This document shows, piece by piece, positions 8,790-62,397 of a stretch of 64,000 nt of DNA. The stretch spans positions 1,054,001 through 1,118,000 of the forward strand of contig NZ_CP047951.1 in the NCBI RefSeq assembly GCF_014279755.1, in the 5' to 3' direction. Within the stretch, counting starts at the first letter, position 1; each line of letters begins with the position of its first letter. This DNA is from Synechococcus sp. PROS-U-1. GTDB lineage: Bacteria > Cyanobacteriota > Cyanobacteriia > PCC-6307 > Cyanobiaceae. A program made the translations under genes and the position numbers. The notes under the pieces were generated by a model. It worked only from the letters and a program-made list of their open reading frames with translations. It did no database searches and was not told where the DNA came from.

Positions 8790-9014
8790 AACGGCAATGG
8801 AGACACGCACTGCGTCGGTCGCCGATCGGACAGACAGCTCGGAAGGTTGCCGCAAGGATTGGTTGAGTTGATCGTTGCTGATGGGTCGAAGTTCCTGGTT
8901 GAAAAACCCCACCCGTTGCTCAGCAGCTTCCACTTGGCAGCCCCAGGAGCCTTCCGCATCGTCAGCGCAACCTTCGCTGAAGCCCTCCCAGGCAGTTGCT
9001 GTGCTGAAACCCAT
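8481..9014 (-). CDS. possible hypothetical protein overlapping parA antisense
   Basis: The first 75 codons (MGFSTATAWEGFSEGCADD onward) lie in the gap after parA. They have normal codon use and look like real protein (WEGF, GSWGCQVEAAEQRV, FFNQEL). The frame then stays open for another 100 codons antisense to parA, which is unusual. Either the true gene is short and the tail is chance, or the whole frame is chance. A competing plus-strand frame at 8881-9036 is serine- and proline-rich and looks worse. Confidence 0.35.
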   Translation of the reverse strand: MGFSTATAWEGFSEGCADDAEGSWGCQVEAAEQRVGFFNQELRPISNDQLNQSLRQPSELSVRSATDAVRVSIAVSGTEGIQRGHGQTITNLDSRLAIGRPSPHASQISSTTITYRIRHTNTFHFRFFKRSQQGDFGLHHIHTKTIQDLARILSKPLFTAIHLHQQRGMHGAHLPED

Positions 9015-54502: not shown

Positions 54503-55150
54503 ATGCAATTCCAAATGCTTGCTACTCCGTCCTCTGATCTGTGTTCAACAGCCCTGGGTTTCAAGGCGTTTCTTGAAGGCAGCTATCAAAAACACAATGT
54601 CGTTCATGTCACGTCGGGAAGTTTTGTTCCACTGCTGAAGAACAGCATTTGGTTTGTGGTTCGTGGCATGGTCAAGCTGGGGGCAGTGTCGGTGCATGGA
54701 GACGAGTTGGTGCTCGGTCTCGTGGGACCCAACGAGCCCTTCAGTGCTGCTTTCACCAATGTGGAGGCCTATGAGGCTGTCGCGCTAACGGATTGCGATC
54801 TGCTGTGTTGCAATCTGCGAGAACTGGAGGAGTCACCGCAGTTGGCTCTTGCCTTGGCGAGGGCCATGACAGCTCGCTACCGCCAGGCGGAATCGATGTT
54901 GGCGCTGCTGGGCTTGCGGCGCGTTGAAGATCGGGTCCGGGGCTTTGTGGAGCTGCTCGCGAGAGACTTCGGTGAACCCTGTGAAGATGGTCTACGGCTG
55001 AATCTCCGCCTCACCCATCAGGAGATTGCCAGCGCCCTGAGCACAACGCGAGTGACCGTCACCAGGGTGTTGGGTCAGTTGCGGGATGAGGGTTGGCTTC
55101 AGATCGATGCATCCAGGCATCTCGTGATGACCCGCACGGGCCGTCACTGA
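54503..55150 (+). CDS. ptrA: PtrA-type Crp/Fnr-family regulator
   Basis: The 215-residue protein has a cyclic-nucleotide-like beta barrel (SFVPLLKNSIWFVVRGMVKL) and a C-terminal winged helix (TQEIASALSTTRVTVTRVLG, in which TQE reads THQE). It lacks the residues that bind cAMP. In Synechococcus WH8102 the orthologue PtrA lies next to pstS and acts as a second tier of the phosphate response. The same neighbourhood is seen here. A half Pho site, CTTAACCG, lies about 60 bases before the start. Confidence 0.88.
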   Translation: MQFQMLATPSSDLCSTALGFKAFLEGSYQKHNVVHVTSGSFVPLLKNSIWFVVRGMVKLGAVSVHGDELVLGLVGPNEPFSAAFTNVEAYEAVALTDCDLLCCNLRELEESPQLALALARAMTARYRQAESMLALLGLRRVEDRVRGFVELLARDFGEPCEDGLRLNLRLTHQEIASALSTTRVTVTRVLGQLRDEGWLQIDASRHLVMTRTGRH

Positions 55151-55718: not shown

Positions 55719-55883
55719 TCAGATTGCCAATGGTGTCGCCTTGGGTTGAGGTTGCTCTCGCCAGAGAAAGGGTGCTTGCTGCTCTCGGTTCAGGGAGACA
55801 CTGCCAAGGATGAGGCCGAGAACCAAAATCAGTGTGAGGGCGATGGCCAGGATCACCTGCCGATCAGACCAGGGCTCGGGCAT
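55719..55883 (-). CDS. 54-aa single-span membrane protein
   Basis: MPEPWSDRQVILAIALTLIL leads into one membrane helix (VLGLILGSVSL) and a polar, proline-rich tail. The frame has good codon use and ends with TGA just upstream of the 127-residue gene on the same strand. Confidence 0.5.
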   Translation of the reverse strand: MPEPWSDRQVILAIALTLILVLGLILGSVSLNREQQAPFLWREQPQPKATPLAI

Positions 55884-56121
55884 GCCATTGCTTGGGTTGT
55901 GAACATGCTGGCTTATACGACTGGTTTGTCGCAGGGTTTGTCGCAGCCTGTCTGCGGCTGTGCGGAACGGCGGAAATGGCGTCTTTTGAGTGCAGCGCGA
56001 TTGGCCTGTTGCCGGATCGGAGCATGCAGCGACTGATGGGGCAGTTGTACTTGTTCAAGATCTCTTTCAAGGTTTGGCTGTTGCAGCCACAGAGGTCGTC
56101 GAACAGCATCTGGGTGGCCAT
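55864..56121 (-). CDS. small protein related to the MsrA C-terminal extension
   Basis: The 85-residue protein starts MATQMLFDDLCGCNSQTLKE and has the core KYNCPISRCMLRSGNRPIAL. The last 45 residues of MsrA at 61681-62397 show the same pattern: M-x-T-Q-x-L, G-x-N, K-Y, I-S-x-C-x-L-R-S-x-N-x-P-I. The DNA is also similar, so this looks like a stand-alone relative of that module. An upstream TTG (56139) could add six residues. The function is unknown. Confidence 0.5.
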   Translation of the reverse strand: MATQMLFDDLCGCNSQTLKEILNKYNCPISRCMLRSGNRPIALHSKDAISAVPHSRRQAATNPATNQSYKPACSQPKQWHARALV

Positions 56122-56168
56122 TGCGAGGTCAGCTTTCAACCCTTATGGGGGATCCCTTTCGCTCAATG

Positions 56169-56217
56169 GATCCCTCGGTTGGGGGAGGTGATTTCCTGCT
56201 TGAACGGCGATGGTGTG
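56169..56217 (+). repeat. upstream repeat block A (copy 1)
   Basis: The block TCCCTCGGTTGGGGGAGGTG, then GAACGGCGATGGTGT, recurs almost unchanged at 60977-61023. In both places it precedes a gene for a small secreted protein by 40-45 bases. Confidence 0.7.
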
Positions 56218-56258
56218 GGTACGGGGAACAGCTTTAAAACAACTTGATTAGAACGATT

Positions 56259-56534
56259 ATGAACAATTTCACAATGCCATTCCTTGCTGGCGTTGCCGGT
56301 GCCGTTGTTGCTCTTGGGATCGCAATCACCTCTCCCCCAAAAGCAGAAGCTGGTGGGATTTATTGGAACAACTATGGGGGTGGCGGGGTTGTTATTCATC
56401 GTGCTCGTTATCACGGTCTTCGCGGGTATTACAACTATGCTCCTGGCTATTACGGTGGCCGAAATGTTGTTGCCGGTCCCAACGGAGCATGTGCTCGTGG
56501 TTATTACGGTCGTGGTGGCTGCGTTCGTTATTGA
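56259..56534 (+). CDS. secreted glycine/tyrosine-rich small protein
   Basis: A signal peptide (MPFLAGVAGAVVALGIAITS, cleavage near AEAGG) is followed by a glycine-, tyrosine- and arginine-rich stretch (YYNYAPGYYGG, YYGRGGCVRY). The chosen start is ATG 56259. Total length is 91 residues. The last part has two cysteines that may form a disulfide. It is probably extracellular or periplasmic; the role is unknown. Confidence 0.7.
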   Translation: MNNFTMPFLAGVAGAVVALGIAITSPPKAEAGGIYWNNYGGGGVVIHRARYHGLRGYYNYAPGYYGGRNVVAGPNGACARGYYGRGGCVRY

Positions 56535-56716
56535 TGCCGAGTCGGGAAGCCTGATGCCTAAGACACGGGGCTGAAAGCAATACAAGACCCTTCGGGGAAA
56601 AGCAGGGGGCGTTGATTGTCGCTATCCATCTCCCGACAAAATTACTCAGTAAATACTCAGTATGTTTTCACCCTTGCCGAAGGGCAGTGATTCCAATCTA
56701 TTGAGACTATTGTTTT

Positions 56717-57862
56717 ATGGCTTACCAGCAAATGAGTACGGCGAAACGTGCGCTTTATTTGGATCAAATTAAGGCGATTATTGTTGCCTTTGTCATAGCC
56801 ATCCATGTTCCAATAGCTTTTGGAGGTATCGGTTGGTCTGGAGTTCGCATTCCTGTAGAGGAATCTATTAGCTCGTTTACTATTGGGTTCTTTCGATGGT
56901 ATTCCTATGCATTGAATTCATTCATCATGTATATGATGTTTTTGATTTCTGGCTATTTTGTTCCTCGCTCTGTGCATAAGAAGGGAGTGTTGCGGTATCT
57001 GAAAGGCCGTCTCCTGCGACTTGGTATTCCTTTCTTGACTGGTCTCCTCTTGCTTAATAATGCCTCGAAACTGTTAGGAATGCTGACTCCATCAAGCCCC
57101 CTTGCTGGATTGCCTTGGAATGAGATTCCTTTTAATCGCGTAGGCGTGCTTTGGTTTCTGGTCGTTCTGTTCGCTTTCGATTTGCTCTATTGCGCTTGGG
57201 TCGCACTGCGCGGAGATCGATTCGCTGTCGATACATCTGTTCCTTCACCAAGGCTTCGATCTTGGTTGGTCAGTGCCATTTCTCTTGGAATTCTTGAAGC
57301 CTTGATGATGAGCCAAACCGATATTTGGGCCACTCTGGGACGATCCGTTTTTGATGGTATAGGCGCTCAAGGCATGCATATTTTTACTTATTTATTCTTG
57401 TTTGTGCTGGGATGCAAGGCGTCGTTTCACCGATGGTTTGAGCGGCTTGATGCGCACCTGGTTGTGAAGTGGTTCCGCCTGTCGATGTTCCTGATTTTAG
57501 CTTCGCTTGCCTTTTTTCTGTCTTCGGCCTTTAACCCCAGTCTGGTCAATGACTCGGCCATAGTTGCTCCGCTCATGTGTTTCCTTTATCCCTTCATCGC
57601 ATGGGGAATTCTCTCCTATCTGCTTCTTTGGTTTCAACGCAATGAAGAACGGCTTGGGCCATGGCTTGCAACGGCCGGAGTGAACAGCTATGGAGCTTAT
57701 ATTCTTCATACATTGGTTCTCGTATTAGTGCTCATGCCTATTGGTTTCACTGGTCTTAATCCCTGGATAATTGTAATCTCTGCTACGGTATTAACGACTG
57801 TTGTGTCATTTGGTGTTGCTGGACAGCTTCGGCGAGTTCCATTGATTGCCCGACTGATTTGA
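56717..57862 (+). CDS. acyltransferase family 3 membrane protein
   Basis: The 381-residue protein has about ten hydrophobic helices and the acyltransferase-3 signature YLDQIKAIIVAFVIAIHVPI with the catalytic-type His. The family O-acetylates sugars of surface polysaccharide or peptidoglycan, or acylates other compounds. GC content is well below that of core genes and the neighbours are orphan genes, which suggests accessory or transferred DNA. The acceptor cannot be told. Confidence 0.85.
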   Translation: MAYQQMSTAKRALYLDQIKAIIVAFVIAIHVPIAFGGIGWSGVRIPVEESISSFTIGFFRWYSYALNSFIMYMMFLISGYFVPRSVHKKGVLRYLKGRLLRLGIPFLTGLLLLNNASKLLGMLTPSSPLAGLPWNEIPFNRVGVLWFLVVLFAFDLLYCAWVALRGDRFAVDTSVPSPRLRSWLVSAISLGILEALMMSQTDIWATLGRSVFDGIGAQGMHIFTYLFLFVLGCKASFHRWFERLDAHLVVKWFRLSMFLILASLAFFLSSAFNPSLVNDSAIVAPLMCFLYPFIAWGILSYLLLWFQRNEERLGPWLATAGVNSYGAYILHTLVLVLVLMPIGFTGLNPWIIVISATVLTTVVSFGVAGQLRRVPLIARLI

Positions 57863-58283
57863 TTCGCAATTGATAGTTAGACACTTCATTGCGTGCCTTT
57901 ACTTCGCCACACGGATTTTCATGATTCCACCTCTTTCCCCATAGAAAATCTTTCATTGAATTTGCCCCGCTGCTGATAGCAGGGTGTGTCTTGTCTTCGT
58001 CGAATGCTCCCTGATTCGGCATCCTGCCGATGGTTATCGAAGGTGCCATTCCTTGTTGGTGTACCTCAGCCGATTGACTGAGGTGGTGCTGCCAGTTGTT
58101 TGCGCATCCATCGTCGGAACGTACGCCACGCGCCCAAGGAACCCCATCCATTGCGCCTGACAACGCAGGGTGTTGGATCAGTGTGCCGGTGAACAGGTCT
58201 TCCTGAACCTTTTCCGGTAGCAATGGATGGTAGAACCGATCTTTCAAGACATCTCCGCAACGACCTCCAATGCCAGTGGACAC
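57783..58283 (-). CDS. doubtful hypothetical protein
   Basis: The first 60-80 residues read like protein (GDVLKDRFYHPLLPEKVQED, then PWARGVRSDDGCANNWQHH). The frame continues 80 bases antisense into the acyltransferase gene and has weak composition there. It may be the decayed remains of a gene between 57870 and 58283. Confidence 0.28.
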   Translation of the reverse strand: MSTGIGGRCGDVLKDRFYHPLLPEKVQEDLFTGTLIQHPALSGAMDGVPWARGVRSDDGCANNWQHHLSQSAEVHQQGMAPSITIGRMPNQGAFDEDKTHPAISSGANSMKDFLWGKRWNHENPCGEVKARNEVSNYQLRIKSVGQSMELAEAVQQHQMTQQSLIP

Positions 58284-58377
58284 GAGTCAACAGAAGATCA
58301 ATAGAAAGATCCTGCTGATTGCTGTCTGGGCCTCTCTACTGCTGCTCACCTTGTTTTCTGGCTCACTGGCTGGTTGA
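58270..58377 (+). CDS. 35-aa single-span membrane protein
   Basis: MPVDTSQQKINRK precedes one strong helix (ILLIAVWASLLLLTLFSGSL). It is followed after 4 bases by a second micro-protein of the same build, so the two are probably one unit. Confidence 0.45.
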   Translation: MPVDTSQQKINRKILLIAVWASLLLLTLFSGSLAG

Positions 58378-58381
58378 TCTG

Positions 58382-58471
58382 ATGGGAACGCATAAGAAAC
58401 CAAGGAGAGCAACGCTTTTGATCGTTGCGCTGGCTCTATCCCTAGTGACGTTGTTGTTTGAATCATTCTGA
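58382..58471 (+). CDS. 29-aa single-span membrane protein
   Basis: A basic start (MGTHKKPRRA) is followed by a helix (TLLIVALALSLVTLLF). It resembles its neighbour at 58270 in layout but not in sequence. Confidence 0.42.
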   Translation: MGTHKKPRRATLLIVALALSLVTLLFESF

Positions 58472-58472
58472 G

Positions 58473-58640
58473 TTGGCAGCAGCCAGCGCCTCAAGCTCTG
58501 CAACCTTTTCAGCACTCCTCAGTTTCCTGAAACGATCCTTAGCTGCGTCCAATCACTGGCTGTCTGGATCGATTCCATTGCGCAGTTCAAGTCAAAATCT
58601 CAGCCGGCGGTTCTCCTTGTCTGCTGACGACGATCGGACC
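58473..58640 (-). pseudogene. possible decayed small gene with in-frame stop
   Basis: On the minus strand LELRNGIDPDSQ, a TGA, then LDAAKDRFRKLRSAEKVAEL continue in one frame to a proper stop at the end (ANSE). The TGA sits where tryptophan would fit. The downstream part could also be read alone from a TTG as 29 residues. Confidence 0.3.
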
Positions 58641-58947
58641 AGGCGCCAGGGCTCACTCTGGAGTTTGCTGGTCGGTGCTGAGGATCGAACTGCGCTCAAG
58701 TTGCGCGGTTGATCTGGTTGTGAATGCTGTGGGGGAGAGTCCTGGTGGTCCTCAATCCCCCCTCAGGGTTGGGGAGAGTCCGTTAGGCCTCGATCCCCGG
58801 TGGCGGCCGCTTTCGCTGCCAGACCCACAACATCAGCATGGATCGCTGCTGCAGAGGGTGCCCCGCTCCCACAGGTTTTCTTCCGAAAACAGCGTTGCAG
58901 CGTTTACATCTGCCTTGCTAGTACAGGTGTACTTGAGCGTATTGCAG

Positions 58948-59196
58948 ATGGGTGAGGGCTGGCTGATTGACTCCGACAACCATTGGATCTGGCGGTTCCA
59001 TCGGGACGAAAAGGCATGGATCCGTGATCCAAAGGTCTTCGTTGACAGGGGGCGACAGATGCCTGATGGCCCACCACTGCTCAAGGAACGTCGTTACCTA
59101 CGCAAAGAAGCTGCAGATCAATTGTGGAATTCACTGCAGAGCCAAGGTTGGAAACGGCTGAAGGTGCCCGCCTGGGGCGAAGCAGTTGAGGTCTGA
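58948..59196 (+). CDS. DUF1651 protein (82 aa)
   Basis: Starting at ATG 58948, MGEGWLIDSDNHWIWRFHRD is followed by WIRDPKVFVDRGRQMP, RRYLRKEAADQLW and LQSQGWKRL, the pattern of the marine cyanobacterial DUF1651 family. A long upstream extension to 58675 has poor composition and is dropped. The function is unknown. The next small gene starts inside its last codons. Confidence 0.72.
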   Translation: MGEGWLIDSDNHWIWRFHRDEKAWIRDPKVFVDRGRQMPDGPPLLKERRYLRKEAADQLWNSLQSQGWKRLKVPAWGEAVEV

Positions 59197-59437
59197 TCAG
59201 GCCCCTAAAGTCCACGTCAACAGTGGATCACCAAAGGTGGCAAAGCTCGGAGAGATCAAGCTGAAGCAGGTTCCGCAGCTGAACACCGCGAACAGCTCGC
59301 CTTTGATTCGGAAGCACAAAGAGGTTCTGAATCTGATGATGAGAACGCTCTCTCTCGACACCTACGGCCTGACGTGGGCGCAGTTCTTCAAAGGATTTGG
59401 CTTGGGTGGTTTGGTCGTTTGGCTCCTGATGCGCTGA
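59186..59437 (+). CDS. small C-terminally anchored protein (83 aa)
   Basis: The TTG start at 59186 overlaps the DUF1651 stop. After a lysine-rich polar half (VAKLGEIKLKQVPQLN) comes a C-terminal hydrophobic end (FFKGFGLGGLVVWLLMR) that may insert in a membrane. A later in-frame start is possible. The family is not recognised. Confidence 0.45.
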   Translation: MRSDQAPKVHVNSGSPKVAKLGEIKLKQVPQLNTANSSPLIRKHKEVLNLMMRTLSLDTYGLTWAQFFKGFGLGGLVVWLLMR

Positions 59438-59501
59438 TGGGATTGAGAGACCTCTTCCCTTTCCTTTTTGGTTGAGATTCACCTCACCTCCCGACAGATC
59501 T

Positions 59502-59528
59502 ACCCCGTCAGCAATGGCGGGGTTTTTG
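59502..59528 (+). terminator. terminator of the recurring CCCCGTCAGCAATGGCGGGG type
   Basis: ACCCCGTC and GGCGGGGT pair around AGCAAT and are followed by five T. Closely related sequences occur at about 60094-60124, 60914-60941 and 61370-61393. Confidence 0.75.
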
Positions 59529-59604
59529 TCTTGCGAGAATGGAATAGTGACTATAAATCTATGCCTTCATTCGACAGACGCCCGAGATTCAAAGCTGGGA
59601 ACGA

Positions 59605-60060
59605 TTAGGCAAAGCACATTATTCCTCCATTGATGCTTGAAGCTGTTGAAGTAACACCTTTACCGATACCGTTGAGTTGATCTAAGTAATGAGTAAGAGT
59701 CTGGCAGTCCCCACTGGCAACTGCATCGCTTAGAAGTGAACTATAGGTGGTATCATAATTTAATATATAGCTCAAATGTGACGCATGTTTTTTAAAGCTT
59801 TTGCTATTTTTCATCTCAAATCCATGAAAGATCGATGAATCGCCAAGGGTTATACGTAAGCTATAGCTATCTACACGGCCCTTCTTGTCGTATTCGTAAG
59901 AACCTTCCGTAATTACCCCAGTTATAACGTCGAAAGAATCGAAATAGGTTGTCTTTTCAAAAGCAGAATTCTCAAACTCAATGTCTGCATTGCTGGCGAA
60001 TAGATCTTTTTCTACAACTTTGTTGTTTTTTCGCAGTTTTTTGTTAAGCCTTTTAGACAT
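59605..60060 (-). CDS. hypothetical protein, AT-rich (151 aa)
   Basis: This 151-residue soluble protein has a very basic start (MSKRLNKKLRKNNKVVEKD), a beta-rich centre (VITGVITEGSYEYDKKGRVD, SYSLRITLGDSSIFHGFEM) and a helical end. GC content is about 38 percent, far below the core block, which suggests recent acquisition. It is not recognised. It reads against its neighbours. Confidence 0.65.
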   Translation of the reverse strand: MSKRLNKKLRKNNKVVEKDLFASNADIEFENSAFEKTTYFDSFDVITGVITEGSYEYDKKGRVDSYSLRITLGDSSIFHGFEMKNSKSFKKHASHLSYILNYDTTYSSLLSDAVASGDCQTLTHYLDQLNGIGKGVTSTASSINGGIMCFA

Positions 60061-60093
60061 TTTGTTTAAAAACTCATTTTAACACTGACAGAC

Positions 60094-60124
60094 GCCCTCC
60101 TGGAGCAATGGCGGGGTTTTTTAT
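60094..60124 (+). terminator. terminator-like sequence, recurring type (weak stem)
   Basis: GAGCAATGGCGGGGTTTTTT matches the element at 59502 on its right side, but the left arm (GCCCTCC) pairs poorly. It may be a decayed copy. Confidence 0.35.
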
Positions 60125-60169
60125 TGCTTGAGCAGAGCGGGGAACACTCAAGACAGTCACGTTTGACCT

Positions 60170-60388
60170 ATGCCTCAAGACACACGCATTGCTCTGTTCC
60201 TGATGGGGGAGCTGGTTGCAGCACTACGTGCCAATGACCCTGACCTCTTCAAGTGTTGGCTGTCTGGTGGGGTGCAAGACCTAGGGGAGCCAGTGGTGGA
60301 ATAACTGCTGCTGGACCGGCTCTATTCGTTCCTGGCCGAAGCAGAACAGGACTGGCTGTTGGCTTGGCATCTGGGCGTGAGTTGTTAA
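60170..60388 (+). pseudogene. small gene broken by an in-frame TAA
   Basis: The frame MPQDTRIALFLMGELVAALR continues to VQDLGEPVVE, meets TAA at 60302-60304, and goes on in the same frame as LLLDRLYSFLAEAEQDWLLA to a second stop (60386-60388). Both halves are protein-like and would form a 72-codon gene. A 44-residue truncated product is possible. Confidence 0.55.
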
Positions 60389-60550
60389 CCAATGCATGAG
60401 GCATAATTAATCACATCTGAGAATCTCTAACATTCTGTTTTTATTATGTATGTGAAGATTGGGTCTGTTGAGAAATACAGTAATCCCTGCCTTCGAGGAT
60501 TAATTGTCTTCCTGGCTTCAGAGATTTAGCTTGCTGCTGTATTCCCTGCT

Positions 60551-60760
60551 ATGCAAATATTACTCCCTCTGGGAGATAAAGCATTCGAATGGCCCATCCC
60601 AGATCCACTTAAGTCTCCAATGGCCTGGCTATTAGGTCCAGTACCAATTGTATTATGGATTTATTTCTACCCCAGTATTGTCAGTCTTATTATTATTTCT
60701 GGAGAATGGCTATGGAAAAGAGGGGCTCCTGTGGCTAAGCCTTTAGAAAAAATTTTTTGA
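60551..60760 (+). CDS. small membrane protein (69 aa)
   Basis: MQILLPLGDKAFEWPIPDPL precedes two short hydrophobic parts (AWLLGPVPIVLWIYFYPSIV and SLIIISGEWLW) and a basic tail. AT content is high. The function is unknown. A second short frame overlaps its stop. Confidence 0.55.
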   Translation: MQILLPLGDKAFEWPIPDPLKSPMAWLLGPVPIVLWIYFYPSIVSLIIISGEWLWKRGAPVAKPLEKIF

Positions 60761-60879
60761 GAAGGTTGTATGAAGCAATAGTTGGATTGTATAAAGCAAT
60801 AGTTGGATTTGATAAGAGTCTGTCAAGACTCAACTCTGAGTTGATAGAGGAAGATCTCCGCAAGCGCCGGCAGCGTTGA
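60757..60879 (+). CDS. possible 40-aa protein containing a tandem repeat
   Basis: From TTG 60757 or 60766 the frame reads LYEAIVGLYKAIVGFDKSLS and ends LIEEDLRKRRQR. It covers the two-unit 21-base repeat (60768-60809), which is translated as two copies of YxAIVG. No ATG is available, so expression is uncertain. Confidence 0.3.
   Translation: MRRLYEAIVGLYKAIVGFDKSLSRLNSELIEEDLRKRRQR
60768..60809 (+). repeat. tandem repeat, two 21-base units
   Basis: GTATGAAGCAATAGTTGGATT is followed directly by a copy that differs at one base (A for G). Length 21 keeps the reading frame. Confidence 0.8.
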
Positions 60880-60913
60880 TGATGTCGCTATCTATGCTCC
60901 CGGCAAAACACGA

Positions 60914-60941
60914 AGCCCGTCAGCAATGGCGTGGTTTTTTT
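60914..60941 (+). terminator. terminator, recurring type
   Basis: CCCGTCAGCAATGGCGTGG is followed by seven T. It is the same family as 59502, with one stem mismatch. Confidence 0.55.
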
Positions 60942-60976
60942 GCCTACCCAGTTGGGGGAGAAGGCTGCCTGAATAA

Positions 60977-61023
60977 ATCCCTCTGTTGGGGGAGGTGATT
61001 CCTGGCTGGAACAGCGATGGTGT
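60977..61023 (+). repeat. upstream repeat block A (copy 2)
   Basis: TCCCTCTGTTGGGGGAGGTG, then GAACAGCGATGGTGT, matches 56169-56217. It precedes the secreted protein gene at 61063 by 40 bases. Confidence 0.7.
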
Positions 61024-61062
61024 CTTTGTTGATGGTGACCCTGCTTAAAGGAATCTCAGCCT

Positions 61063-61293
61063 ATGAAAAACCAAGTTACTATTTGCATCGCTGGATTTTC
61101 TGCTGTCACCATCTCACTCCTGGGGATAATGCTTTATCAAGCGATGAATGTGGAAGCCGCAGCGAGCGCAGGTATAAGACCTGCTACCACCCAATTCACA
61201 TGTTCCATTGTTGAGGACTTCACTGGTAAGGGCGAAGTCAAGAGCGGCTGTTGGGATGGAAGGTGTGCTCGATTCCCTGTGCGCCCTTACTGA
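61063..61293 (+). CDS. small secreted protein (76 aa)
   Basis: A signal peptide (VTICIAGFSAVTISLLGIML, cleavage near VEAAA) is followed by about 45 residues with three cysteines (FTCSIVEDF, SGCWDGRCARF). It shares upstream and downstream sequence blocks with the secreted protein at 56259, though the proteins themselves differ. It is probably periplasmic or released; the role is unknown. Confidence 0.62.
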   Translation: MKNQVTICIAGFSAVTISLLGIMLYQAMNVEAAASAGIRPATTQFTCSIVEDFTGKGEVKSGCWDGRCARFPVRPY

Positions 61294-61369
61294 TATATCA
61301 GTAGTAGAAAAGCAGGGGGCCTCGTGATTGTCGCTATCAATCTCCCGACTAAAATCTCACACACATCAC

Positions 61370-61393
61370 CCCGTCAGTCATGGCGGTTTTTTT
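61370..61393 (+). terminator. terminator, recurring type
   Basis: CCCCGTCAGTCATGGCGG is followed by seven T, about 80 bases after the secreted protein stop. Confidence 0.55.
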
Positions 61394-61479
61394 ATTGCTT
61401 ACCCAGATGATGGATAAATCCTGCTGCTGAGAATCCCCTGAATGAGGGATGTGCAAATCTCCTGCATCGGAGAGGCTGC

Positions 61480-61674
61480 CGTTGGTCGCCGCAGTAGATG
61501 AGCACTGATGGGCCCCTCGATCTCACCGGCAAGCGTTTCGGTCGGCTGAGGTGGCGCTGTCGGTTTTGATCAGGAGGGTCACACCCCTGGTGCCGGAGGA
61601 GCTGTTCCTGCCGGTTGAGGGATGTCTGTTGGTCGGCGTCTTCGGTGCCGACCCTGCCGTAGCCGATCAGTAGC
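61480..61674 (-). pseudogene. relic of a serine recombinase N-terminus
   Basis: The minus strand reads LLIGYGRVGTEDADQQTSLN, then RQEQLLRHQGC, close to the resolvase start GYxRVSTxxQ..SLxxQ..L..GC. The catalytic serine is glycine here. After the GC the match continues in another frame (TDSATSADR, like the resolvase SG..ADRP), so there is a frameshift. No start codon or full domain remains. Confidence 0.42.
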
Positions 61675-61680
61675 CCTGAT

Positions 61681-62397
61681 TCAGCTTGCGAGCTGGATTG
61701 GGCTGTTGTCTGAGCGGAGGACGCAGTGACTGATGGACCAGTCGTACTTGGCCCAGACCTGCTTCGGGAGCTTGTAGTTGGATCCCTCGAAGCTGCCGAG
61801 CAGCGTCTGGGTTGGCATGGCCGAGCAGTAGGGGCGGCTTCCGGGTTTGGCCAGATATTGCTGGTGATAGTCCTCGGCGAAATAGAAGGTTTGATCAGCC
61901 AGGATTTCGGTGGTGATGGTGCCGTAGCCCCTTTCGGAAAGGGCAGCTTGATAAACGTCCCGGCTGGAGAGGGCTTGTTGGAGATGCTGCTGGTTGAAGG
62001 TGTAGATCGCTGATCGGTATTGCGTACCGGTGTCATTGCCCTGTCGATTGCCCTGGGTGGGGTCGTGGCATTCCCAGAACAACTTCAGCAAGTCGCTGAA
62101 ATCCACCGCCGGACGACTCCAAACCACGCGCACGACTTCCGTGTGTCCCGTTCTGCCGGAGCACACTTGGTTGTAGGTCGGTTGCTCCGTCTGTCCTCCC
62201 GCATAGCCAACGGCAGTGCTAACCACCCCTGGCAGCCGCCAAAACCCTTTTTCAGCGCCCCAAAAGCATCCACAGGCAAAGATCGCTTCCTCCTGATCTG
62301 CCATGAGCGGGGCATTCAGCGGTGTCCCCAACACAGCATGGGTTGCCGGTGCAGCTGATTCGGCGCCGCTGCGGGGAGACAGCCAGGAGGGCAACAT
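61681..62397 (-). CDS. msrA: peptide methionine sulfoxide reductase MsrA with C-terminal extension
   Basis: The 238-residue protein has the catalytic [36 protein letters not shown], and the aspartate/tyrosine region [16 protein letters not shown]. It reduces methionine-S-sulfoxide. The usual C-terminus ends near YCSA. Here about 45 more residues follow ([20 protein letters not shown], then [20 protein letters not shown]), similar to the stand-alone protein at 55864-56121. The N-terminal 30 residues are poorly conserved; a start at residue 32 (MADQEE) is possible. Confidence 0.93.

Follow-up and report, generated by a model that had tools for sequence, protein, structure and literature searches.

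Near the right end of a 64,000-nucleotide (nt) stretch of the Synechococcus sp. PROS-U-1 genome (the window; bases 1054001–1118000 of a single 2.576-Mb contig), two different small genes lie between flanks that resemble each other, which raises the question of whether such flanks serve to exchange the genes between them, or belong to those genes in some other capacity. A sequence-only reading of this zone had proposed a cassette system with an exchanged payload, in which a 5' block (block A) precedes two small secreted proteins and a common block follows both genes. Both blocks were confirmed by alignment. The two block A copies were 84% identical over 55 nt without gaps, and the downstream block, which begins with AAAAGCAGGGGGC at 56598 and 61308, continued with 29 nt (56613–56641 and 61325–61353) at 93% identity; the alignment scores of 37 and 32 were far above the best values from 200 block-shuffled zones (15 and 16, respectively). 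The downstream block is real, but it is the 3' half of a structured element of approximately 105 nt; in the aligned copies, conservation extends further toward the 5' side and the ends pair. In the first window copy the block is part of this longer element, and the second copy is decayed. With confidence a little better than even, we interpret the two genes as members of a family of mobile expression cassettes whose messenger RNAs (mRNAs) share a new regulatory RNA. The proposal that contents change between constant ends holds in that the ends travel with the payload, but the idea that the flanks are an exchange machinery is unsupported, because covariation marks the 3' flank as an RNA structure, the 5' flank resembles a promoter plus leader, and the island in the window contains no recombinase.

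A structured RNA behind stop codons

The fold of the element was examined in an alignment (A4) of 66 diverse copies, 41 from hosts and 25 from viruses, a set that omits ten partial or weak host matches, nine of the 59 phage matches (very long, partial or, in L223, near-duplicate), near-identical rows and L222 (L and G numbers are our handles for loci and genomes). Five helices were supported. P1 closes the element (GYCGGGG/CCCCGRC), P2 and P5 are highly variable in sequence and length, P3 consists of three base pairs (GCY/RGC, GUY/RAC), and P4 is a hairpin. Across the 21 pairs, 94.6% of the 1367 alignment cells were paired, and 203 cells were double-changed, compared to 71.7 in shuffled alignments, none of which reached this value in 500 trials; when the partners were slid by one to three columns, the paired fraction dropped to 27–50%. 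Host rows alone gave 131 double-changed cells with 92.1% pairing, and viral rows alone gave 64 with 98.7% pairing, while the least supported pair was the third of P3, unpaired in 24 of the 66 copies. Compensatory changes in excess of both the shuffled and the slid controls demonstrate that the element is a structured RNA. G-U cells (82) outnumbered A-C cells (38), which favors an RNA of the coding strand over folded DNA. Conservation reached at least 90% in 47 columns, and 29 of these lie outside the helices, with the conserved unpaired stretches CUGAAA, AUACAA and AGGG; because the viral rows were found with a pattern that fixes some of the conserved bases, so that their invariance results partly from selection, the host-only numbers (44 and 29) are the fair ones.

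No Rfam covariance model matched the element in the window zone (expectation value, E, up to 5), in 14 host loci (E up to 0.5) or in 12 viral loci (gathering threshold), and the positive controls, tRNA and tmRNA, were recovered in the searches of the window zone and host loci. The open-licence literature yielded no earlier description of such an RNA or of such common gene ends, and only chance matches to the sequence strings of the element, among the matches listed; a description may exist elsewhere, and the element appears not to have been described before. The 29 near-invariant bases outside the helices, the covariation, the wide spread and the lack of an Rfam match suggest that this RNA probably does something specific.

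Copies of the flanks are numerous in the PROS-U-1 genome, and the two pairs in the window are not the only ones. Block A had 12 matches at E up to 10, six of them clear (E ≤ 1.6e-7); the seventh, situated by eye inside an acetyltransferase-like open reading frame (ORF), is probably due to chance, and one further block-A-like leader was recognized by eye ahead of another element. The downstream block had 11 matches, nine of them clear, at E ≤ 1.1e-5. Both blocks with a small ORF between them occurred in several places, and one block only in others. A first model of the element (R1), built from seven sequences, detected ten copies in this genome at E < 1e-5 plus three weak ones, and matched 25 of 201 genomes of the family, with as many as 18 copies in G174. 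A second model (R2) had matches at E ≤ 0.001 in 62 of 400 sampled family genomes and in 44 of the 251 of good quality, spanning 9 of 59 genera and including 22 of the 34 genomes of the same genus; copy numbers from this family scan are lower bounds, with approximately nine candidates scored per genome. Across the phylum, R2 matched 18 of 386 sampled genomes, and all 18 belonged to the same family. An exact 32-nt pattern had zero matches in genome contigs, but a gapped version matched 17 places in named genomes, all of them marine Synechococcus or Prochlorococcus, as well as at least 120 marine viral contigs. Intact copies are present in strains such as Synechococcus WH7803. In one genome (G156, L077–L080), four identical elements are situated at contig ends. 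The same end of a Tyr/Gln-rich ORF precedes three of them, and the assembly is probably interrupted at these places by a longer repeated gene. In three small family genomes (L051, L053, L057), the single element found follows similar genes, with that of L051 matching YbjN, and the element may be a fixed rather than a mobile feature in these genomes.

The element is also present in siphophages. R1 was searched against 57 of the 120 viral loci and the whole isolate genomes of Prochlorococcus phages MED4-184 and MED4-117, and exactly one element was found in each of these 59 stretches or genomes; since the viral loci were 0.7–14.9 kb long (median 8.3 kb), more copies may lie elsewhere in those phages. 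Comparison of six contigs (10 proteins) to PHROGs identified terminase and portal proteins on two contigs, and a head morphogenesis protein, a tail-fibre protein and an integrase on one each. Terminase was identified in four sequences (L128, L103, MED4-184 and MED4-117, the last two being close relatives), and in all four the element was located on the same strand, 1.8–4.3 kb before the terminase gene. The genes downstream of viral elements also vary, and a viral scan with one payload protein revealed no relative. When phages were searched using blastn, one query returned five records (two each of MED4-184 and MED4-117, and P-HS2), one returned none, and one returned chance matches only.

The position of the element relative to genes is shared by viral and host copies. 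Of the viral elements, 114 had 300 nt or more of upstream sequence, and 113 of these had an ORF of at least 50 amino acids (aa) with its stop codon no more than 40 nt upstream, in 106 cases at −1 to 9 nt, compared to 134 of 1140 random positions on the same strand and 9 on the opposite strand. In hosts, an ORF of at least 40 aa ended within 50 nt before 42 of the 59 copies (240 of 1180 random positions in the same loci), and an ORF ended within 15 nt before 32 of them (80 of 1180). A terminator was located within 90 nt downstream of 26 of the 59 host copies, with its T-run starting 25–37 nt behind the element. The place behind stop codons distinguishes this element from most known bacterial RNA elements. 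Stimulation of stop-codon read-through or frameshifting would fit the spacing of 0–9 nt, yet was rejected because the spacing is not kept modulo 3, and because those frames that were followed by eye soon stop inside the element; the stops there are conserved TGAs and, in the Prochlorococcus-phage type, a TAG. Partial elements also exist: in the second window copy and in L032, other sequence takes the place of the 5' half, as far as the ORF end.

Leaders, payloads and their inheritance

On the 5' side of host units, a GATGGTG motif recurs ahead of ORFs in two main contexts. The class S leader is block A itself (CCCTC..TGGGGGAGGTGATTCC..GGAACGGAGATGGTGTG) plus its variants, and the class R leader (..TGATCAACATCACAGG..GTCATCAACTGG..GTGATTCCGGAGATGGTGTG) has what appears by eye to be a CRP-like palindrome. 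The PROS-U-1 genome holds five class R copies. All six RTX-type payloads sit behind a class R leader, and three of the nine class R loci (L029, L049, L072) had no RTX match or no payload scanned. Half of the 24 leaders picked for folding by a text rule (12 of 24) folded at least 6 kcal/mol better than shuffled sequences, forming a hairpin of varying sequence. A sigma-70 consensus scan found seven matches compared to 5.0 expected, none of them at the block A copies; this result is at chance level and uninformative, and calling the 5' block a promoter is our interpretation. The palindrome TGTGATCAACATCACA, of CRP type, lies ahead of class R leaders in L005, L030 and L029, and a Crp-family regulator is encoded at window positions 54503–55150. 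Several class S copies have a putative leader peptide (ATGGTGTGT) upstream, in the same frame as the ORF; this reading was discarded, since the frame is not kept in others. A CACACAC run follows 16 of 56 host elements (L024 and L038, for example), compared to none in control windows and none in 50 phage copies; this tail could pair with the GGUGUGU of the leader.

Leader and 3' element were mostly inherited together. Leader class required two changes on the tree of the elements, compared to 7.8 in shuffles, with none of 200 shuffles as low, where the classes had been assigned by eye to 25 labeled rows and the element tree is poorly resolved. L075 is an exception, having a class R leader and an element that groups among the class S copies of its own genome. 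We also compared 56 host loci over a stretch that begins 1300 nt before the element and extends 400 nt behind it (E 1e-4). Within this stretch, two homologous payload pairs from different genomes matched from where the leader starts to where the element ends and no further, L025/L068 (−370 to +102) and L030/L074 (−1046 to +105), and two other pairs, L048/L052 and L054/L056, were alike beyond the element and look like the same locus. Units may also adjoin one another: G202 (L268) has two tandem elements behind ORFs of 465 and 187 aa, and Synechococcus WH7803 has three elements, of which two lie on one strand with about 2 kb between them, each following an ORF, and the third, elsewhere, is 133 nt from the end of its nearest upstream ORF. 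Positions 8970–9763 of L253, in the PROS-U-1 genome, and L073, in G174, form one unit that is 90% alike, and its longest ORF (164 aa in PROS-U-1) runs opposite to the element, as if the payload had been inverted; a 69-aa ORF on the element strand is the alternative.

The host payloads themselves were mostly unrelated to each other. Of 29 compared to Pfam, five had RTX repeats (PF00353) above the cut-off and one just below it, and 22 passed no Pfam cut-off. The ends allow cassettes of small accessory island proteins to be listed where similarity between proteins mostly fails. RTX and small Sec-type proteins in islands of marine Synechococcus are the same types of payload; however, they are known as proteins, and no common ends or RNA were found for them in the open-licence literature. 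A crude signal-peptide rule was passed by 10 of 33 payloads (10 of 42 when nine ORFs judged doubtful by eye were added), compared to 11 of the 61 window ORFs and 18 of 91 ORFs in other loci of the same genome. Export is better argued from the RTX payloads together with the signal-peptide-like starts beside the common leader (for example, MKLF..SIAA..). The two window proteins had been read as secreted, and both do start with a hydrophobic stretch, but the crude caller rejected payload ORF 1 (L025), and their secretion is inferred.

What the shared ends may do

In the explanation that we favor, a cassette would comprise a promoter and 5' leader, one ORF whose product is in part of the family exported, the RNA of about 105 nt, often no more than 15 nt from the stop codon, and, in many host copies, a terminator. 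Islands and phage-related elements would carry such cassettes from one genome to another, and the cassette ends would stay with the ORF as its expression signals; the flanks look like the ends of a transcript rather than recombination sites. The 3' element may act in cis, in the mRNA, as a folded domain of the 3' untranslated region (UTR) that binds a cellular protein or RNA, and the bound domain could set the lifetime of the mRNA or the formation of its 3' end, resulting in a common control over many unrelated accessory genes. Phages, in turn, might use the same RNA for the gene ahead of their late genes. Our first guess for the element is that it acts in cis on mRNA stability or on the formation of the 3' end, with antitermination and a 3'UTR-derived small RNA as the next. 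The element also connects the islands of abundant ocean bacteria to siphophages. A more far-reaching version, which we put forward tentatively and consider rather less likely, would make the element a new class of cis RNA behind stop codons, common to siphophages and picocyanobacteria, that in hosts serves a mobile regulon, and whose control the phages exploit or mimic. Unrelated accessory genes, in part for exported proteins and with as many as 18 element copies in one genome, would come under one control through the matched 5' and 3' ends of each cassette, and new payloads would be captured between these ends.

Several observations weigh against the expression-cassette explanation, every functional step of which is inferential. 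In the window, the second copy of the element is decayed, and the hairpin has been lost from both leaders (−4.5 kcal/mol compared to −7.7 when shuffled in L025; no stable hairpin in L033). In hosts, 17 of the 59 copies have no ORF of at least 40 aa ending within 50 nt. The longest ORF near the L026 element (164 aa) is on the opposite strand, with a 69-aa ORF on the element strand ending 89 nt before the element. The link to export is loose, since payloads showed no clear excess of signal peptides over the controls, and some payloads are not exported proteins (a TM2 protein in L038, a YbjN-like protein in L051). In phages, the ORFs ahead of the element encode small proteins of other kinds, from several families; many of the viral contigs are closely related, so that the viral counts given above are not independent; none of 50 viral copies had a terminator within 90 nt downstream; and in L149 and L154 no more than about 10 nt separate the end of a terminator from the element that follows (about 40 nt in L127), indicating that the RNA there may belong to another transcript.

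The alternative that survives best, although we consider it unlikely, is a processive antitermination RNA of the HK022 put or EAR type, by which polymerase would pass phage terminators into the late genes and, in hosts, the terminators of the cassettes. The position of the element before terminase on the same strand, the terminators behind nearly half of the host copies (26 of 59), and the single copy in each of 59 phage sources are consistent with such a function. However, 50 viral copies all lack a terminator in the 90 nt downstream, and a single-gene cassette gains nothing visible by passing its own terminator. HK022 put RNA and EAR are likewise cis-acting structured RNAs, in phages and in genes for exported products; here the element lies behind the gene.

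Integron-like or other site-specific exchange, in which the 3' element or its DNA hairpin would be the site where a tyrosine recombinase cuts and joins, seems to us quite improbable. Constant ends with unrelated contents, the tandem elements in G202 (L268) and the location in islands are expected from this alternative, and a tyrosine recombinase was situated within 6 kb of 15 of 80 elements across the genus, compared to about 1.9 expected, among the matches listed. This enrichment is not proof of a role in exchange, nor is its Poisson value to be read as a probability, because islands hold both recombinases and elements. On the other hand, the copies are scattered and 65 of the 80 have no recombinase within 6 kb, the two PF00589 matches in the PROS-U-1 genome are not near any copy (this is a generic tyrosine-recombinase profile, which does not distinguish IntI), the element has a fixed orientation behind stop codons, its tolerance of G-U pairs and its near-invariant internal loops are RNA-like, and its multi-branched fold with 29 conserved bases outside the helices does not look like attC, a poorly conserved sequence with one imperfect hairpin. 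Integron cassettes and clusters of attC sites lacking integron-integrases (CALINs) similarly combine an ORF with a conserved folded 3' piece, have variable contents and are sometimes tandem, but here the 3' piece is RNA-like in its covariation and G-U pairs, the unit has a leader of its own, the copies are scattered, and no integron integrase was identified in the generic PF00589 search. Tycheposons and other tyrosine-recombinase islands of marine picocyanobacteria are alike in their island cargo and in the recombinases near some elements; in contrast, the unit described here is a single-gene cassette with RNA ends, and the window island, which has no recombinase, is located at the 3' end of msrA.

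We are equally doubtful that the element is a small RNA released from the 3'UTR of mRNAs and acting in trans. The conserved unpaired stretches, the several copies per genome, many with a terminator behind them, and the CACACAC run of host tails are in keeping with such an RNA, but the run is missing from the 50 viral copies, and no target was found, although none was sought. Prochlorococcus Yfr1 and its relatives have a common motif with a CACACAC run, which the host tails recall, and the Yfr small RNAs of Prochlorococcus and Synechococcus resemble the present element in being structured, partly in islands and from the same bacteria (PMC2518516). They differ in that our element is tied to the stop codons of ORFs and has no Rfam match in the loci tested.

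A self-cleaving ribozyme or an RNA that binds a cellular ligand is very unlikely in our view: the bases outside the helices that are at least 90% conserved, in host rows too, lie inside a closed helix as would be expected of such an RNA, whereas no known ribozyme or riboswitch was matched by Rfam in the loci tested, and a position behind the gene is unusual for a riboswitch. Least credible is a mere dispersed repeat, of the miniature inverted-repeat transposable element (MITE) or repetitive extragenic palindromic (REP) kind, landing downstream of genes, which the identical copies at G156 contig ends and the partial copies L032 and L033 might suggest, but which is contradicted by pairing kept through divergent sequence, by a spacing from the stop codon that is far too regular, by the preference for gene ends over control positions in both viruses and hosts, and by the single copy in each phage source.

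The island at msrA and other features of the window

In the favored explanation, the zone is part of an accessory island that holds two worn members of the cassette family (Table 1). Empty sites in relatives join window positions of about 55912 and 61678, corresponding to an insertion of 5.8 kb. The spacing between the Crp-family gene and msrA is 6.5 kb in PROS-U-1, compared to 0.75–0.85 kb in 14 of 17 relatives, 1.1 kb in G218, 3.9 kb in G061 and 4.1 kb in G204, where the relatives were those with both flanking genes within 5 kb on one contig, and nine of them were aligned. The locus varies between strains, in that 15 of the 17 relatives have no insertion at this point of msrA (eight judged from spacing alone); the site of G061 is considered empty because tRNA-Pro and the Crp gene flank its extra DNA. 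At the same site, G204 has an insert of about 3.3 kb and G218 one of about 0.35 kb, and both contain parts that are similar (65–75% identity) to pieces of the window island. No 3' element was found at this msrA site in any of the nine aligned relatives. The element-free G204 insert (L247) carries a second msrA end of its own (the G218 and G061 loci are L250 and L248, respectively). Of two traits of integrative elements, the duplication of a gene end at the island borders is present, as the 3' end of msrA occurs at 55991–56127 and 61687–61825, and an integrase inside the island is absent, since neither of the two PF00589 matches in this genome (E ≤ 1e-5) is in the window.

Table 1. Features of the island and its msrA flank, in window coordinates.
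Feature	Position	Strand	Basis or remark
Strain-specific insertion (island) between tRNA-Pro and msrA 3' end	55913–61677		Empty sites of relatives
Degenerate second copy of msrA 3' end, left island edge	55991–56127	−	Local alignment with 61687–61825
Block A copy 1 (5' block, class S leader)	56162–56216	+	Genome search and pairwise alignment
Payload ORF 1, 91 aa, Gly/Tyr-rich, homologue in G174 (L068)	56259–56534	+	No Pfam match
3' structured RNA element copy 1, intact	56539–56641	+	R2 102.5 bits; R1 E 2.1e-25
Acyltransferase family 3 gene, cargo of the island behind copy 1	56717–57862	+	Pfam Acyl_transf_3 E 1.4e-33
Shared-family terminator, reference copy	59493–59527	+	Alignment, terminator scan; no element seen ahead
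Weak terminator-family copy	60087–60121	+	77% identity; missed by terminator scan
Small ORF remnant (...ALFLMGELVAAL...), repeated beside other cassettes	60167–60301	+	
Possible 3' element, very degraded	60820–60908	+	R1 18.4 bits, E 0.67
Shared-family terminator	60905–60939	+	Alignment, terminator scan
Block A copy 2 (5' block, class S leader)	60969–61023	+	Genome search and pairwise alignment
Payload ORF 2, 76 aa	61063–61293	+	No Pfam match
3' element copy 2, decayed	61248–61353	+	R2 30.7 bits, E 5e-4; recognizable only in 3' half (about 61308–61353)
Shared-family terminator, 3' of element copy 2	61359–61393	+	Alignment, terminator scan
msrA, flank; island sits at its 3' end	61681–62397	−	Pfam PMSR E 1.6e-58

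The terminators noted earlier at 59502, 60914 and 61370, with a weak copy at 60094, were borne out as a family of four copies, in which the other three are 63–77% identical to the reference copy. The terminator scan placed its calls at 59502, 60918 and 61371 and made none at 60094, so that describing the last as weak was fair. A third element within the island is not a safe assignment, because of its high E value. Small-ORF remnants (..RIALFLMGELVAALRANDPDLF..), found in the window as well as in L253 and L254, adjoin several cassettes and resemble decayed copies of one gene.

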